32,637 nt of DNA, from contig MGTO01000140.1 in NCBI GenBank assembly GCA_001799485.1, positions 1 through 32,637 of the forward strand, given 5' to 3'. Position numbers and translations under genes: made by a program. The first letter of the stretch is position 1, and every line of letters begins with the position of its first letter. This stretch comes from Desulfuromonadales bacterium GWC2_61_20. Its GTDB lineage: Bacteria; Desulfobacterota; Desulfuromonadia; Desulfuromonadales; UBA2197. This document shows, in pieces, positions 6,550-19,329 of this stretch. The notes below the pieces were generated by a model that was not told the origin of the DNA, ran no database searches, and saw nothing but the letters and a program-made list of their open reading frames with translations.

Positions 6550-8430
6550 TTATTTTGGACGTTTCTCCAGGGGATGATAGTCGTGCCCCCCCGGCTCGAA
6601 AAACTTGCTGAAAAACTCGACGTAGTGCAAACGCAGGGCATGCACGGTCGGGGCGAAAATCCCCAGCAGGAGATTGAAGAGGTGGAGAAGTCCGGCGACG
6701 AAGATCCCGGCGACGATGCTGCCGCTGAGGCCGCCGAGCCGGTTGGCAACGGTGGCGAGGAGGACCGAGGTCAGGCCGATGGCCATGAGCCGGGCGTAGG
6801 AGACGACGTTGCCGATGGTTTTGAGCATCTCCAGCGGCGCCAGCAGCCCGCCGCTGACCAAGAGCAGCGGGATCGTCACCCCGAGACTCCACAGGGCCAC
6901 CGCCAGCAGCCCGCTCTCCGGTGCCGCCCAGCCGACCCCGACCAGCACGAGAGCCAGGAGGATGAGGAGATTGAACAGGCGCAGCCAGGCTTCGCGCCGG
7001 TGACCGGAGCGCGCCGCCACGAAAATGCCCAGAATCAGACCGAGCCCGACATGGACCAGCCCGACACTCAGGGCAAACCAGAGGAAGGGGACCAGCGATC
7101 CGCTCCTGGCGAAGAGGAGCGGTGCGAGGCCGAGACGCTGCCCCCCCTCCTCGCCGAAACATTCGCCGAAGAGGAGGCCGAAGAACATACTGCTGACAGC
7201 GCACGCCATCAGGATCCGCGCCCCATCGCGCACCGTCGGCGAAATCCGGGGCTGCATCATCACCCCGCCGGCCACGAGAGCCAGCACCCCCCCGTAACCG
7301 AGATCACCGAGCATCAAACCGAAGAGGAGGGGAAAGAAGAAGGCGACCAGGGGGGTCGGATCGATGGAAGCATAGCGCGGCAGCGGCAGCAGTCGTACCA
7401 GCAACTCGAAAGGCCGCAGGTAATAGGGATTGTGCAGCAGCACCGGTACTTGCTCCAGGTCGTGTTCGCAGACCTCCCCTTCGGTGAGGTCCACCTCGCC
7501 ACCGAAACGCGCTTCCAGCTCGTCGCGCAGTCCCGCCACCCGCGCCGCCGGCATCCACCCGTGCACACAGAAGCAGAGCTCGGTTTCGAAAACGTCGGCC
7601 GCCGCCGCCAGTACCGCCAGGCGGTCGTCGAGCCAGTCGGCGACCTTGCGGTAGAGAGGGAGCCAGCGCCGGGCGAAGCGTTCCTCCTCGGCGGCGAGCA
7701 GCAGCGCCCGCTGGCGGGCTTCCTCGCTGCGCCGGGACAGGGTCGCCACCTGTTGCTCCAGAGGCAATCCGGCCAGCTCAGCGGGAAGGGCCAATTCCGC
7801 TACCCCTTCAGCAGCCAGGGCCCCCCGCACGACCTCGGCAAAATCGTTGTCGGTGGCGATGACCCCGACGGTTGTTCCATCCGGCGCCACCGCGGTGTCG
7901 AGGTGAAAGCGGCCGCCGGTGAGCCCTTCCGCCGCTGCCGTCAACTTGCCGGCCAACTCCGGTTCGCGCAGGGTCACGCCGACGACCTGCACCAATCCGG
8001 CGGAGGTATCGCGCCCCTCCAGCAGCCCAGCCAACGTCTGCAGCAGCCCGGCCTGGCGGCTACTCTCCAGCGTCTGGCGCTGCAGCCCTTCGCGCTCGTC
8101 CCGCCGCCGCCGGCAGCTGTCGAGATGCCGGGGGAGGAGGTGCGCCAGCGCCTCCAGCGCCGCCGGCGGATCGAGGTAGGCGACTCGCAGCGGGGGTGCT
8201 GGCAGCAGGGCGCAGAGCTCGCCGATGCCGTCGCGCAGGTGGGCGAACCAGAGCTGGCGGGCGAGGCTGGCACTGTCGACATGCAACGGATGCAGACCGT
8301 GAGCGGCGGTCGCCGGCCAGGGCGCGCCCCCTTCCAGCTGGACCACGCCGATCTCGCGCAGCGCCTCGAGCACCGGCAGCAAACGCCCTTTGGGCCCGAC
8401 GATGTCAACCTTGGCCATGCGGATGATCAT
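6550..8430 (-). CDS. atpI: A/V-type ATPase subunit I (membrane stator, a-subunit equivalent)
   Basis: The ORF track start (8715) runs through the G/H gene. The ATG at 8430 gives the family-typical N-terminus MIIRMAKVDIVGPKG and has GGAGGT just upstream (spacing only 3-4). A second ATG at 8418 would be too far from it. The 626-aa product has a soluble N-terminal half of about 310 residues and a C-terminal half with roughly seven or eight membrane helices, starting near the FFPLLFGLMLGDLGYGG motif, a signature of I subunits. It forms the ion half-channels against the K ring. Length matches the family (620-660). It overlaps the G/H gene by 26 bp and is followed by K. Confidence 0.93.
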   Translation of the reverse strand: MIIRMAKVDIVGPKGRLLPVLEALREIGVVQLEGGAPWPATAAHGLHPLHVDSASLARQLWFAHLRDGIGELCALLPAPPLRVAYLDPPAALEALAHLLPRHLDSCRRRRDEREGLQRQTLESSRQAGLLQTLAGLLEGRDTSAGLVQVVGVTLREPELAGKLTAAAEGLTGGRFHLDTAVAPDGTTVGVIATDNDFAEVVRGALAAEGVAELALPAELAGLPLEQQVATLSRRSEEARQRALLLAAEEERFARRWLPLYRKVADWLDDRLAVLAAAADVFETELCFCVHGWMPAARVAGLRDELEARFGGEVDLTEGEVCEHDLEQVPVLLHNPYYLRPFELLVRLLPLPRYASIDPTPLVAFFFPLLFGLMLGDLGYGGVLALVAGGVMMQPRISPTVRDGARILMACAVSSMFFGLLFGECFGEEGGQRLGLAPLLFARSGSLVPFLWFALSVGLVHVGLGLILGIFVAARSGHRREAWLRLFNLLILLALVLVGVGWAAPESGLLAVALWSLGVTIPLLLVSGGLLAPLEMLKTIGNVVSYARLMAIGLTSVLLATVANRLGGLSGSIVAGIFVAGLLHLFNLLLGIFAPTVHALRLHYVEFFSKFFEPGGHDYHPLEKRPK

Positions 8431-8749
8431 GCCACCTCCCCGGCCACAAGCGCGGCAGCTGCCGCCGCAGCACGGCGCACAGGCGGCTGTCGCTGATACC
8501 CGCCAGGGCCGCCGCCCGCGCCTGGGCCGCCGCCACTGCCGCCGTCTGGCTCTCCTCCCCGGCGCGGCAGGCGGCGGCGCGTGCCGCCGCCCCCTCGCCC
8601 TGCAGCTCCTGCTCGAGGGCCGCAAGGTCGGCGGCGAGCGCCTTGTCGCACAGCTCCAACGCCGCCCGCAGCCGGGACTCCTCGCCGTCAAGGCGCTGGC
8701 GCAGTTGACCCTCAAGGAGGAGAATGTCGTGGAGCGGGGTCTCGTTCAT
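8405..8749 (-). CDS. A/V-type ATPase subunit G/H (peripheral stalk coiled coil)
   Basis: This 114-aa protein is the first gene of the ATPase operon. Residues about 5-95 are a continuous Ala/Glu/Arg/Leu-rich helix with coiled-coil character; no other motif is present. In A/V-type operons with order G-I-K-E-C-F-A-B-D, as in Thermus, the gene at this place encodes the partner of subunit E in the peripheral stalk. The assignment rests on position, size and composition rather than sequence signature. The ATG at 8749 follows a purine-rich GGGAAAGGG. Its last 26 bases overlap the subunit I start. Confidence 0.72.
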   Translation of the reverse strand: MNETPLHDILLLEGQLRQRLDGEESRLRAALELCDKALAADLAALEQELQGEGAAARAAACRAGEESQTAAVAAAQARAAALAGISDSRLCAVLRRQLPRLWPGRWHDHPHGQG

Positions 8750-8794
8750 CGCCCTTTCCCGGCACGAACAAGCGCTAACCTCTGGTCCCTATTC

Positions 8795-8800
8795 AGTATA
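8795..8800 (-). promoter_or_regulatory. Possible -10 box for the ATPase operon
   Basis: On the minus strand TATACT lies about 45 bp upstream of the first ATPase gene, in the 156-bp divergent gap shared with the helicase gene. No convincing -35 box is seen 16-18 bases further up, so this is a weak call. Confidence 0.3.
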
Positions 8801-8846
8801 GCGCCCCGCGCGCACTCCGCGAGGAGCGGCCGGGAGGTGACAGCGC

Positions 8847-8875
8847 TTTTCTTTTGCCCGCCCTTTCCCTATAAT
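8847..8875 (+). promoter_or_regulatory. Promoter of the JAMM-DinG helicase gene
   Basis: A perfect TATAAT lies at 8870-8875, about 30 bp before the ATG, with a weak TTTTCT -35 box 17 bases upstream. A TTGAGGAGAT ribosome binding site follows at 8888-8896. Confidence 0.5.
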
Positions 8876-8905
8876 GCCGCCTCCTCTTGAGGAGATCTTT
8901 AGCGA

Positions 8906-11440
8906 ATGGAACAATCCCTCACCCCCGCGGCACGCGCCTCCATGCGGCAGGCGATTGCCGAAGCGGGGGGGAACGAAGTCTTTTTCCTCGGCCGTACCGA
9001 CCGCGAGCGCCGCGTCGTCGAGGCTGAAGCCTTGGCCCGCGGCAGCGCCGAGGCGGTCCCCGCCATCCTCCAGCTCTGCCGCTACGGCGACGTCGTCCTG
9101 CACAACCACCCCTCCGGCCGGCTCCAGCCCTCGGGCGCCGACATCGAGATCGCTTCGCGCCTCGGCGCTCTCGGCGTCGGCTTTTACATCGTCAACAACA
9201 ACGTCGAACGGATCTATCGCGTCGTCGAAGCCTTCGCCCCGAAGGAGAAGCAGAGCCTCGACCCGGCGGCCGTCGCCGCCATCCTCGGCCCGCAAGGGAT
9301 CGTCGCCACCACCCTCCCCGGCTACGAGGAGCGCCCCGAGCAGCTGCGCATGGCCTTTGCCGCCAGCGAAGCCTTCAACGCCGGCAAGCTGGCGGTGATC
9401 GAGGCCGGCACCGGCACCGGCAAGAGCCTCGCCTACCTGGTCCCGGCGATCCTCTGGGCCATCAATAACGAAGAGCGGGTGGTGGTCTCGACCAACACCA
9501 TCAACCTGCAGGAACAGCTGATCCGCAAGGATATCCCCTTTCTCCAGCGCGCCGCCAAGCTCGACTTCCGCGCCGTCCTGGTCAAGGGACGCGCCAACTA
9601 CTTCTGCCGCCGCCGCGCCGAGACGGCGCGGCACGAGCCGGGGCTCTTCGAGGCGGAGCACGCCTTGGAGCTCGCCGCCCTCCTCGCCTGGGCCGAGAAG
9701 AGCAACGACGGCTCGCGCGAAGAGCTGCCGACGGCGCCGCGCGAGGAGATCTGGGACGAGGTCTGCTGCGAACTCGACCAGTGTTCGCGCGTCCGCTGCC
9801 CCCACTACGGCCGCTGCTTCTTCCACAAGGCTAGGCGCCAGGCGGCCCAGGCCGATCTCCTGGTAGTCAACCACAGCCTCCTTCTCGCCGACCTCGCCCT
9901 GCGCCAGCAGACCGACAACTACAGCGCCGCCGCCGTCCTTCCCCCCTTCGACCGTATCGTCCTCGACGAAGCCCATCATCTCGAGGATGTCGCCACCCGC
10001 TTCTTCGCCACCCAGACCACCCGCTTCACCTTCGGCCGCGTCCTCGGTCGCCTGCGCCACCCGCGCAAGTCGGAACGCGGACTGCTGCCGCGGCTGCAGG
10101 AGCTCCTCGCCAAAGAGTTGCCGGAGACCGAAGACACCCTCTACCGCGCCCTCTACGGCCGCATCGAGGAGCTTCTCGCCCTGCGCCAGGCCCTCCTCGA
10201 CCGCGCCGTCGCCGATCTCGACAGCGTCGGTTTCGACCTCACCGCCGTCCTCGGCCGCAGCGCCTCGCCCCAGGAGGAGTTGCGCCATCGCATCCTGCCG
10301 GCCTTTGCCGCCTCCCCCGAGTGGGGCGCCATCGCCGCCCGGGTGCGCGACCTCGGCCGCGAAAGCACCCGCCTCGCCAGCGGCCTGCGCGAGCTGCTCA
10401 AGGCCTGCGCCGCCGTTCCGGAAGAGGCCGCCGACAAACTCGTCTCGGCCCTCACCGACCTGCGCGGCATCGCCTCGCGCCTCGAAGGGATCGGCGGCGA
10501 TCTCGCCTTCTTCGCCGCCCTCGAAGCGGGGACCTGCGCCTGGCTCGAGGTGGCGCACGGCCGCATCGGCCGCGGCAACGGTCTCGTCGTCCGCCTCTGC
10601 ACCGCCCCGCTGGAGGTCGCCGCCAGCCTCAAGAGCGCCGTTTACGACCGCTACCGCACCGTCGTCATGACCAGCGCCACCCTCGCCGTCGACGGCAACT
10701 TCGACTACTTCCGCCACCGCGTCGGCCTCGACGCCAGCGAGCCGGGACGAGTCACCGAACTTCTCCTCGACTCCCCCTTTGACTTTGCCCGCCAGACCCT
10801 CCTCGCTATCCCCGCCAACATCCCCGAACCGGGGGCGCCGGGCTACGCCGAGGCGGTCAGCGAACTCTGCGAACGCGCCATCGTCGCCGCCGACGGCCGC
10901 ACCTTCGTCCTCTTCACCGCCTACTCCCTGCTGCGCCGGGTCCACGCCGAGCTGGCACCGGGGCTGCAGGCCCGTGGCTACCACTGCCTGCGCCAGGGGG
11001 ATGAAAGCCGCCACCGCCTGCTCAAACACTTTGCCGCCGACCCGACCAGCGTCCTCTTCGCTACCGACTCCTTCTGGGAAGGGGTCGATGTGCCGGGACG
11101 GGCGCTGGAACAGGTCATCATCACCCGCCTCCCCTTCAAGGTGCCGACCGAACCGGTCCTCGAAGCCCGCGCCGAAGCCATCGAGACGGCTGGCGGCGAC
11201 CCTTTTCGCGCCTACACCATCCCCCAGGCGGTCTTGCGCTTCAAGCAGGGCTTCGGTCGCCTCATCCGCCACCGTGACGACCGCGGCGTCGTCCTCATCC
11301 TCGACAGCCGGGTGGTCAAAAAGGGCTATGGCCGTATCTTCCTCCGCTCCCTCCCCCCCGCCCCGGTGGTCAGCGGTGACAGCAATGAAGTCCTGGCCGC
11401 CATTCGCACCTTCTTCACCCCTGTAGGGAAAAAGACTTGA
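8906..11440 (+). CDS. DinG/XPD-family ATP-dependent DNA helicase with N-terminal JAMM (RadC-like) domain
   Basis: The 844-aa protein joins two parts. Residues about 1-110 contain a full JAMM zinc-metalloprotease signature: Glu24, then HNHPSG with H66-x-H68-x7-S76-x2-D79. The surrounding strands resemble RadC. From about 140 on it is a superfamily 2 helicase of the DinG/Rad3/XPD group: Walker A GTGTGKS (168-174), DEAH box (354-357), and C-terminal motifs DSFWEGVDVPG and QGFGRLIRH. Cys234, C287/288, C293, C298 and C304 fit the Fe-S cluster domain of these enzymes. The DEDD exonuclease found at the N-terminus of Firmicute DinG is absent. Helicase activity is expected from the family; what the JAMM domain cuts, if anything, is unknown. 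It is divergent from the ATPase operon. The start is supported by a good RBS. Confidence 0.9.
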   Translation: MEQSLTPAARASMRQAIAEAGGNEVFFLGRTDRERRVVEAEALARGSAEAVPAILQLCRYGDVVLHNHPSGRLQPSGADIEIASRLGALGVGFYIVNNNVERIYRVVEAFAPKEKQSLDPAAVAAILGPQGIVATTLPGYEERPEQLRMAFAASEAFNAGKLAVIEAGTGTGKSLAYLVPAILWAINNEERVVVSTNTINLQEQLIRKDIPFLQRAAKLDFRAVLVKGRANYFCRRRAETARHEPGLFEAEHALELAALLAWAEKSNDGSREELPTAPREEIWDEVCCELDQCSRVRCPHYGRCFFHKARRQAAQADLLVVNHSLLLADLALRQQTDNYSAAAVLPPFDRIVLDEAHHLEDVATRFFATQTTRFTFGRVLGRLRHPRKSERGLLPRLQELLAKELPETEDTLYRALYGRIEELLALRQALLDRAVADLDSVGFDLTAVLGRSASPQEELRHRILPAFAASPEWGAIAARVRDLGRESTRLASGLRELLKACAAVPEEAADKLVSALTDLRGIASRLEGIGGDLAFFAALEAGTCAWLEVAHGRIGRGNGLVVRLCTAPLEVAASLKSAVYDRYRTVVMTSATLAVDGNFDYFRHRVGLDASEPGRVTELLLDSPFDFARQTLLAIPANIPEPGAPGYAEAVSELCERAIVAADGRTFVLFTAYSLLRRVHAELAPGLQARGYHCLRQGDESRHRLLKHFAADPTSVLFATDSFWEGVDVPGRALEQVIITRLPFKVPTEPVLEARAEAIETAGGDPFRAYTIPQAVLRFKQGFGRLIRHRDDRGVVLILDSRVVKKGYGRIFLRSLPPAPVVSGDSNEVLAAIRTFFTPVGKKT

Positions 11441-11562
11441 CCTTCCTTGCGGAAGTGGCAAGGATGATGCACAGTTAGGCCCTGCTGCGCACGACTCGAC
11501 AACGTCGTCCCGCTGGCCGACCTTGTCACCGCTCCCCCTTCAACCCCAATGGAGACCTGACC

Positions 11563-17112: not shown

Positions 17113-17856
17113 ATGAGCGAAATCTTCACCGTCCAGGCCTTTCTCGCCCTCGGCACCCTCACCGCCCTCGAGATCGTCCTCGGCATCGACAACATCATCT
17201 TCATCTCCATCCTCGTCGGTCGCCTCCCCGAGGCCCAGCGCGGCAAGGCGCGCTTCTTCGGCCTGGCGTTGGCGATGTTGACCCGCATCGCGCTGCTCTT
17301 CTCCCTGACCTGGGTCATGGGGCTGACCGCGCCCCTCTTCACCGTCCTCAACCAGGCGATCTCGGGGCGCGACCTCATTCTCATCGTCGGCGGCCTCTTC
17401 CTCCTCTACAAGAGCACCGCCGAGATTCACGGCAGCCTCGAAGGGGTGGAGGAACACGGGGCGCCCAAGGGAGGCGGCACATCGTTCGGCGCGACCCTGA
17501 TGCAGATCGCCATCCTCGATATCGTCTTCTCCCTCGACTCGGTCATCACCGCTGTCGGCCTCGCCCAGCAGCTCTGGGTCATGGTCGTTGCCGTGGTCGC
17601 GGCGGTCGGGGTGATGATGTTCGCGGCCAAGAGCATCAGCGACTTCATCGAGGCCCATCCGACCTTTCAGCTTTTGGCCCTGAGTTTTCTGATGATGATC
17701 GGCGTGACCCTGATCGGCGACGGCCTCGGCTTCCATATCCCCAAAGGCTATATCTACTTCGCCATGGCCTTCTCCGTCGGCGTCGAGATTCTCAACATGC
17801 GCCTGCGCAAACGCGCCAAGCCGGTCCACCTGCACAAGGAAATCGTCGAGAATTGA
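17113..17856 (+). CDS. TerC family integral membrane protein
   Basis: The 247-aa protein has seven or so membrane helices and both TerC signatures: LEIVLGIDNIIFISILVGRLP near the N-terminus and LDIVFSLDSVITAVG in the middle. Their Asp residues in the membrane are thought to bind metal ions. TerC-family proteins act in Mn2+ export or in metalating secreted proteins, and some in tellurite resistance; with no ter genes nearby, tellurite resistance is not supported. Length fits the short YoaE/YjbE-like forms without CBS domains. The DUF853 gene follows 21 bp later. Confidence 0.9.
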   Translation: MSEIFTVQAFLALGTLTALEIVLGIDNIIFISILVGRLPEAQRGKARFFGLALAMLTRIALLFSLTWVMGLTAPLFTVLNQAISGRDLILIVGGLFLLYKSTAEIHGSLEGVEEHGAPKGGGTSFGATLMQIAILDIVFSLDSVITAVGLAQQLWVMVVAVVAAVGVMMFAAKSISDFIEAHPTFQLLALSFLMMIGVTLIGDGLGFHIPKGYIYFAMAFSVGVEILNMRLRKRAKPVHLHKEIVEN

Positions 17857-17877: not shown

Positions 17878-19329
17878 ATGAGCGACCCGCTGATCATTGC
17901 CAAGGGGAGTGAACTCCTCGGCCTCCTGCCGAAAATGGCCAACCGCCACGGCCTCATCGCCGGCGCCACCGGCACCGGCAAGACTGTCACCCTGCGCGTC
18001 CTGGCCGAGCAGTTCAGTCGCGCCGGCGTCCCGGTCTTCATGGCTGACGTCAAGGGCGACCTGACCGGTCTGGCCCAGGCCGGCGGCGATCACCCCAAGG
18101 TGCAGGAGCGGGTCGCGGCGCTCAAGCTCGACGGCTACGCGGCGGAAGGCTACCCCGTCGTTTTCTGGGATCTCTTCGGCGCCGCCGGCCATCCGGTGCG
18201 CACCACCGTCTCGGAGATGGGGCCGCTGCTGCTGGCCCGTCTCTTCGACCTCAACGACACCCAGGAGGGGGTCCTTTCCCTGGTCTTCAAGATCGCCGAC
18301 GATCAGGGGATGCTCCTCCTCGATCTGAAGGACTTGCAGGAGATGGTGCGCTACGTCGGCGACCATGCCGGCGAATTCCGCACCAGCTACGGCAACATCT
18401 CGGCGGCGAGCATCGGCGCCATCCAACGCAGCCTCTTGACCCTGGAGCAGCAGGGGGGCGGGCGCTTCTTCGGCGAACCGGCCCTCGACCTCGACGACTT
18501 CATCCAGACCGGCGCGGGGGGGCGCGGGGTGATCAACATCCTCGCTGCCGACCAGCTGATGCAGACGCCGAAGCTCTACGCCACCTTCCTCCTCTGGCTT
18601 TTGGCCGAGCTCTTCGAGCGCCTGCCCGAGGCCGGCGACCCGGAGAAGCCGAAACTGGTCTTCTTCTTCGACGAGGCCCACCTCCTCTTCGACAACCCGC
18701 CCAAAGCGCTGCTGGAGAAGATCGAGCAGGTGGTGCGCCTGATCCGTTCCAAGGGGGTCGGGGTCTACTTCGTCACCCAGAACCCCCTCGATATCCCCGA
18801 AGAAATCCTCGGCCAGCTCGGCAACCGGGTGCAGCACGCCCTGCGCGCCTTCACCCCCAAGGACCAGAAGGCGGTGCGGGCGGCGGCGGAGACCTTCCGC
18901 GCCCGCCCCGGTCTCGATGTCGCCACGGCGATCATGGAACTCGGCACCGGCGAGGCCCTAGTCTCCCTCCTCGACGCCAAGGGGGCCCCAAACATGGTCG
19001 AGCGCGCCCTGGTCGCGCCGCCGCGCAGCCGCCTGCAGCCCCTCGACGCGGCGGAGAAGGCGGCGGTCATCAATGGCTCCCCGCTGGCCGGCCACTACGA
19101 AAGACAAGTCGATCGCGAATCGGCCTACGAAAAGTTGAAAACCCGTGCCGCCCAGGTCGCGGCACAACAGCCGCCGGCAGCCCCGCGCGGGCGCAGCACT
19201 GCCCCCGACAACCCCACCGGCGAGATCTTCGAAGCGGCGGCCAAGAGCGCCGCCCGCGCCATCGGCAGCCAGGTCGGGCGCCAGATCATCCGCGGCATAC
19301 TAGGCTCCCTCTTCGGCGGACGTCGCTAG
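17878..19329 (+). CDS. HerA-like ATPase, DUF853 family (YjgR-like)
   Basis: The 483-aa protein opens with [24 protein letters not shown] and Walker A GATGTGKT (29-36). It has [11 protein letters not shown], a Walker B stretch [12 protein letters not shown], and the [33 protein letters not shown] segment typical of DUF853. These are FtsK/HerA-type P-loop ATPases of unproven cellular role, probably acting as DNA- or protein-pumping rings. The C-terminus ends in [16 protein letters not shown]. It is likely co-transcribed with the TerC gene. The RBS AAGAGG lies before the ATG. Length is near the E. coli YjgR size (500). Confidence 0.92.

Follow-up and report, generated by a model that had tools for sequence, protein, structure and literature searches.

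RadC-like DinG in the Desulfuromonadales, an Fe-S helicase carrying an N-terminal JAB/JAMM domain

Helicases of the DinG type may carry a further domain in front of the motor. The exonuclease of the Firmicutes enzymes, to which the original prediction compared this protein, is a known example but not the sole one, as an endonuclease occupies the same place in other members, and both types, ExoDinG and EndoDinG, are described in the review by Cheng 2025 (PMC11981726). The architecture with a RadC-like domain was named "RadC-like DinG" in the same source, with a protein of Desulfuromonas soudanensis as the type, and RadC-DinG fusions had been mentioned earlier by the Aravind group (PMC5512222). 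The fusion itself is, thus, already known, and the novelty that the original prediction implied for it does not stand. For RadC, a family found widely in bacteria, a biochemical role is not established, and the fusion offers a good opportunity to work out its function. RadC is of the JAMM type, as the original prediction had it. The tie of radC to DNA repair is disputed (PMC11981726). Domains of the RadC-type branch have been reported to lack the groove that accommodates a ubiquitin tail and were proposed to be nucleases (PMC5512222).

The gene considered here lies in a window of 32,637 nucleotides, the whole stretch of DNA analysed, from Desulfuromonadales bacterium GWC2_61_20 (Table 1). Its product is a full Fe-S helicase of the DinG/YoaA type, headed by a JAB/JAMM domain of the RadC type. 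The reading frame, the Pfam RadC match, the AlphaFold2 and Foldseek results and the match to structure 6fwr all agree with the DinG/XPD helicase fused to an N-terminal JAMM domain that had been predicted. A Walker A motif, a DEAH box, four Fe-S cysteines and a Helicase_C_2 domain place the protein among the Fe-S SF2 helicases of the DinG/XPD type; the chain beyond the N-terminal domain gave profile matches to DEAD, to DEAD_2 (weakly) and to Helicase_C_2 (156 bits). Three of the cysteines (C234, C298, and C304) are present in 81/81 alignment rows and C293 in 77/81. The full-length AlphaFold2 model (pLDDT 88, pTM 0.83) matched E. coli DinG with single-stranded DNA (6fwr) in a structure search with an E value of 5e-41. 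The top NCBIfam model was that of YoaA (NF053712), with a score of 593 bits, which is below the equivalog cut-off of 680 bits. An antisense reading frame of 890 amino acids (window 8789-11461, minus strand) covers the entire helicase gene; judging by its composition, it seems to result from high-GC codon usage and not to be a gene.

Table 1 Features of the RadC-like DinG gene and its product (positions in the window)
Feature	Position	Strand	Basis
CDS, RadC-like DinG helicase, 844 aa, ATG start	8906..11440	+	ORF and profile matches
AGGAG, probable ribosome-binding site, 11 nt 5' of the ATG	8890..8894	+	Read from the sequence
N-terminal RadC-type JAB/JAMM domain, residues ~1-115	8906..9250	+	Pfam RadC, AlphaFold2, Foldseek
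E24, predicted general acid-base	8975..8977	+	Alignment; role by analogy with AfJAMM (PMC300881)
HNHPSGRLQPSGAD: H66, H68, and D79, predicted Zn ligands, plus S76	9101..9142	+	Alignment
Walker A GTGTGKS, residues 168-174	9407..9427	+	Sequence
Fe-S cluster cysteines C234, C293, C298, and C304	9605..9817	+	Alignment
DEAH box, residues 354-357	9965..9976	+	Sequence
Helicase_C_2 motor domain, residues 659-818	10880..11359	+	Profile match
C-terminal helix at the YoaA alpha-7 position	11381..11416	+	Full-length model, YoaA alignment

The RadC-like character of the N-terminal region was borne out by the Pfam RadC profile (PF04002), which matched residues 12-89 with 35.4 bits when the domain was searched alone and with 28.8 bits in the context of the whole protein; both scores are above the curated cut-off of 22.1 bits and make the domain a member of this family. 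The Prok-JAB score was 17.8 bits, under the 25-bit cut-off of that profile, and the equivalog model of full-length RadC, NF000642 (180 bits), reached 30.6 bits over the JAB part only. The JAMM fold, on which the original prediction hinged, is present in the AlphaFold2 model of the domain (pLDDT 91, pTM 0.84, from an alignment of 46 rows), for which Foldseek returned RadC 2qlc as the top match (E 4.6e-5, prob 1.00), followed by the JAMM domains of Rpn11, CSN5, and AF2198. The modelled fold class appears secure but its details are not, because the domain TM-scores are only about 0.5-0.6. E24, H66, H68, S76, and D79 are spaced exactly as in the JAMM signature, as had been predicted, with one refinement: residue 67, between the histidines, is Asn in 118/120 alignment rows. 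The original JAMM motif, EXnH(S/T)HX7SXXD, has Ser or Thr at this position and accepts Asn for distant relatives (PMC300881). The Asn between the histidines marks the RadC branch.

The five residues are invariant in all 79 orthologues of the first set that cover the region, so that the His and Asp residues are kept as the original prediction demanded. In a wider collection, E-H-H-S-D is intact in 107/109 distinct genes, at a mean column identity of about 60% over the N-terminal domain; the 109 genes are the 120 rows of the first set, the class, and the phylum sequences, from which ten duplicates and one row with a frame broken between the N-terminal domain and the helicase (L028) were removed by hand. 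Conservation to this degree indicates that the metal site of the RadC-type domain is under strong selection.

The spread of the architecture proved to be wide, as the gene is present in all 146 genomes of the class and the fusion spans at least seven phyla. Among the matches listed, 140 of the 146 class genomes have one that starts within the N-terminal domain, the other six listed matches being partial, and no DinG-type helicase besides RadC-like DinG was found in the class. A sample of 198 genomes of the phylum yielded 17 matches to the N-terminal domain at 125-179 bits, all of them in reading frames of 845-917 amino acids; the other matches reached at most 36 bits and nearly all fell in reading frames of the size of stand-alone RadC, the exception being the fused, degenerate protein of genome G056. 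As the strong matches are all in frames of fusion size, the N-terminal domain of RadC-DinG was found in this phylum sample only in fused form. A second DinG was not detected in the genomes of this sample that carry the fusion, and 88 other genomes gave a plain DinG-type match that begins after the N-terminal region. Members were found by a scan of genome contigs in Desulfuromonadales/Geobacterales, Planctomycetota (Brocadiales), Calditrichota/KSB1, Acidobacteriota, Hydrogenedentota, Dadabacteria, and Auribacterota, some of these assignments being record titles of metagenome-assembled genomes, in which single contigs may be misbinned. In a tree of the helicase part only (56 rows), all 41 fused proteins fell together, set apart by a branch with an SH-aLRT of 100. 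The tree supports a single origin of the fusion rather than proving it, because the fused rows were picked by similarity and the IQ-TREE run was a quick one.

In the window, a gene for a V-type ATPase subunit I (6553-8715, minus strand) precedes the helicase gene and is divergent from it, and the genes 3' of the helicase gene are unrelated. A conserved operon around the gene was not found in its own lineage, where the neighbours vary. Further along, a gene for a HerA_C-type ATPase (17878-19326, plus strand; PF05872, 741 bits) adjoins one for a TerC family membrane protein (17113-17853). At ten loci of Calditrichota/KSB1 (L046, L049, L050, L056, L057, L058, L061, L062, L067, and L081), the gene immediately 5' of the helicase gene, in the same orientation, codes for a homologue of the MBL/beta-CASP nucleases; one representative that was scanned scored 195 bits with TIGR04122, below the cut-off of 325 bits. 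The distances between the two genes range from an overlap of 55 bases to a gap of 174 bases, with several of 3-6 bases, all approximate as start codons were chosen by script. This arrangement suggests an operon in Calditrichota/KSB1, and the pairing with an MBL-type nuclease gives contextual support to a role in DNA repair. In two genomes that belong to a single family of the order (f2; L096 and L097), a stand-alone radC gene in the same orientation follows RadC-DinG at a distance of two to three genes, and none was found near the window gene or at any locus of the first set. The sequence GGTT-N2-C-N4-G-N3-ACC is a form of the LexA/SOS box. Neither this box nor the E. coli-type SOS box was present near the start of the gene, and their counts in the window were below chance, which speaks against LexA/SOS control through these two forms; a box of another type is possible.

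The RadC-like domain in front of a DinG helicase and the conserved E, H, H, D center together identify the protein, with high confidence, as a RadC-like DinG with an active metal site. It is most likely an ordinary chromosomal housekeeping 5'-3' repair helicase that carries a metal hydrolase. Taken as a whole, the best explanation, and a reasonably probable one, is a class-wide repair helicase of single origin bearing a zinc hydrolase, with a nucleic acid slightly favored as the substrate. Going by the biochemistry of DinG and YoaA, the helicase would engage the single-stranded DNA of stalled or damaged forks and translocate in the 5'->3' direction. The JAB domain would bind zinc via H66, H68, and D79, with E24 and S76, and hydrolyze a substrate exposed by unwinding, by a small margin more likely a nucleic acid (an end or a damaged strand) than a peptide bond. 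A nucleic-acid substrate (DNA or RNA) is put forward tentatively, at somewhat less than even chance, because the domain occupies the site of the exonuclease or endonuclease of other DinG proteins and because RadC is reported to lack the ubiquitin-tail groove (PMC5512222; PMC3482391); a protein substrate is more doubtful, and the rest falls to a structural role or another reaction. Against a nucleic acid, the JAB/JAMM domains of known reaction in the literature cited here are peptidases of ubiquitin-like tails, and nuclease activity of RadC is without report in that literature. The repair role itself has to be reconciled with the normal DNA-damage sensitivity of E. coli radC mutants (cited in PMC11981726) and with the lack of an SOS-box-like site near the start of the gene in the window.

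The alternative that survives best, although it is unlikely, is that the RadC-type domain acts as a peptidase or isopeptidase on proteins at the DNA, which would make the whole chain a one-piece counterpart of FANCJ plus a DNA-dependent metalloprotease of the SPRTN type. The fold is that of JAMM, none of the five active-site residues is missing, and an Asn between the histidines is able to support the Glu in the manner of Ser or Thr (PMC300881). FANCJ, a 5'-3' helicase of the XPD type, is reported to unfold the adduct of DNA-protein crosslinks in vertebrates, likely before cleavage by SPRTN, which is a DNA-dependent metalloprotease (PMC10175854); a helicase of this type is thus able to act in concert with a metalloprotease. 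The reported lack of the groove in RadC-type domains (PMC5512222) weighs against a peptidase, as does the compactness of the predicted domain, and a gene for a ubiquitin-like partner was not found adjoining the helicase gene. The isopeptidase that was originally proposed to process a roadblock or a modified partner at the unwinding site is possible but is not supported over its rivals. A single-polypeptide machine in which the helicase unfolds a DNA-protein crosslink and the RadC-type JAMM domain proteolyzes the adduct is improbable; if real, it would provide the first known activity of the RadC branch.

Also unlikely, with a probability separate from those of the other readings since any reaction of the RadC domain would fit it, is that the protein is the YoaA of this order, recruited to the replication fork by HolC (the chi subunit of DNA polymerase III), with the RadC domain as an add-on. 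Besides the top rank of the YoaA model, it is HolC that argues for this role: the gene is present in the same genome (G000:C108:3146-3550, corresponding to L100:1501-1905; 98.9 bits), in all nine sampled genomes of the order, and in the seven Desulfuromonadales genomes behind the loci, and W57 and F64 of HolC are conserved. A search of 38 genomes from the order detected no HolD, which would fit but is a weak point since HolD is poorly conserved and its Pfam model matches only the E. coli protein among the controls. R619 and T620 of YoaA are, however, replaced by V-V in the window protein, and RadC-DinG occurs where HolC was not found, in 8/8 sampled genomes of the rest of the class and 27/27 others. 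In Cheng 2025, the alpha-7-like helix of RadC-like DinG was considered likely not to serve HolC, the encoding organisms being without HolC (PMC11981726). This absence does not hold for the present order; the presence of HolC in the window organism and in the sampled genomes therefore corrects the observation, and lack of HolC is not taken as a defining feature of the subgroup.

Still less probable is a domain whose present role is chiefly structural or regulatory, as a module for docking or for guiding DNA such as that of the pseudo-exonuclease DinG, pExoDinG, a parallel published in PMC11981726. Two proteins retain the domain with a lost site: that of G421 (L151), from the same order, reads A-H-H-T-E and that of G056 (L095:996-4043), from elsewhere in the phylum, reads G-R-R-E-E. 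These losses fall in separate parts of the fused clade in the helicase-only tree and are independent, and the two proteins are candidate "pseudo-RadC" DinGs; as they keep the fold without the site, a non-catalytic role may also apply, which counts against a hydrolase. A purely structural domain would, however, not need the five residues that 107 of the 109 genes in at least seven phyla retain, and the helicase of G056 sits on a long branch, which suggests general relaxation. A defense gene was rejected, since PADLOC matched only the DinG models of type IV CRISPR, via the shared helicase, and other signs of a CRISPR or defense setting were not seen among the genes examined. Chance or artefact was rejected because nearly the whole class has the gene at full length and because the N-terminal domain is conserved at 40-68% identity.

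The probable repair helicase with its RadC-type domain can be set beside several known systems. The domain has its fold and five active-site residues in common with the peptidases Rpn11, CSN5, and AfJAMM, which carry Ser or Thr instead of Asn between the histidines and to which the TM-scores are low, as given above. The stand-alone RadC of the same genome (contig C100, 228 amino acids) shares the HNHPSG...PS..D motif and the JAB fold, but it is the product of a separate second gene, is 24% identical to the fused domain over 88 residues, and extends at its N terminus by a region with no counterpart in the fused domain. ExoDinG and EndoDinG also have a hydrolase domain N-terminal to the helicase, which is a nuclease in their case and a RadC-type JAB domain here. 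E. coli YoaA, likewise an Fe-S helicase and the closest curated model, is 35-42% identical over the motor segments; it has no N-terminal domain, and its HolC-contact residues are not conserved in the window protein. From RadC-like DinG, as PMC11981726 describes it, the protein itself does not differ: in both, a RadC-like domain that has E, D, and two H comes first, and an MD1-FeS-Arch-MD2 helicase and an alpha-7-like C-terminal helix follow. The difference lies in HolC, which the review gives as absent and which the window organism and its order possess. In at least seven phyla, the fusion joins a JAB domain of RadC whose metal site is intact to a helicase with a known mechanism. Concrete tests are offered by the two natural losses of the active site, by the co-occurrence with HolC in one order, and by the pairing with a nuclease gene in a different clade. 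Set against the available part of the published description and the open-licence PMC texts covered here, the additions are the class-wide census, the finding of the N-terminal domain in fused form only, the placement of the fused proteins in one clade, the two lineages with a lost active site, the pairing with a nuclease gene, and the correction regarding HolC.
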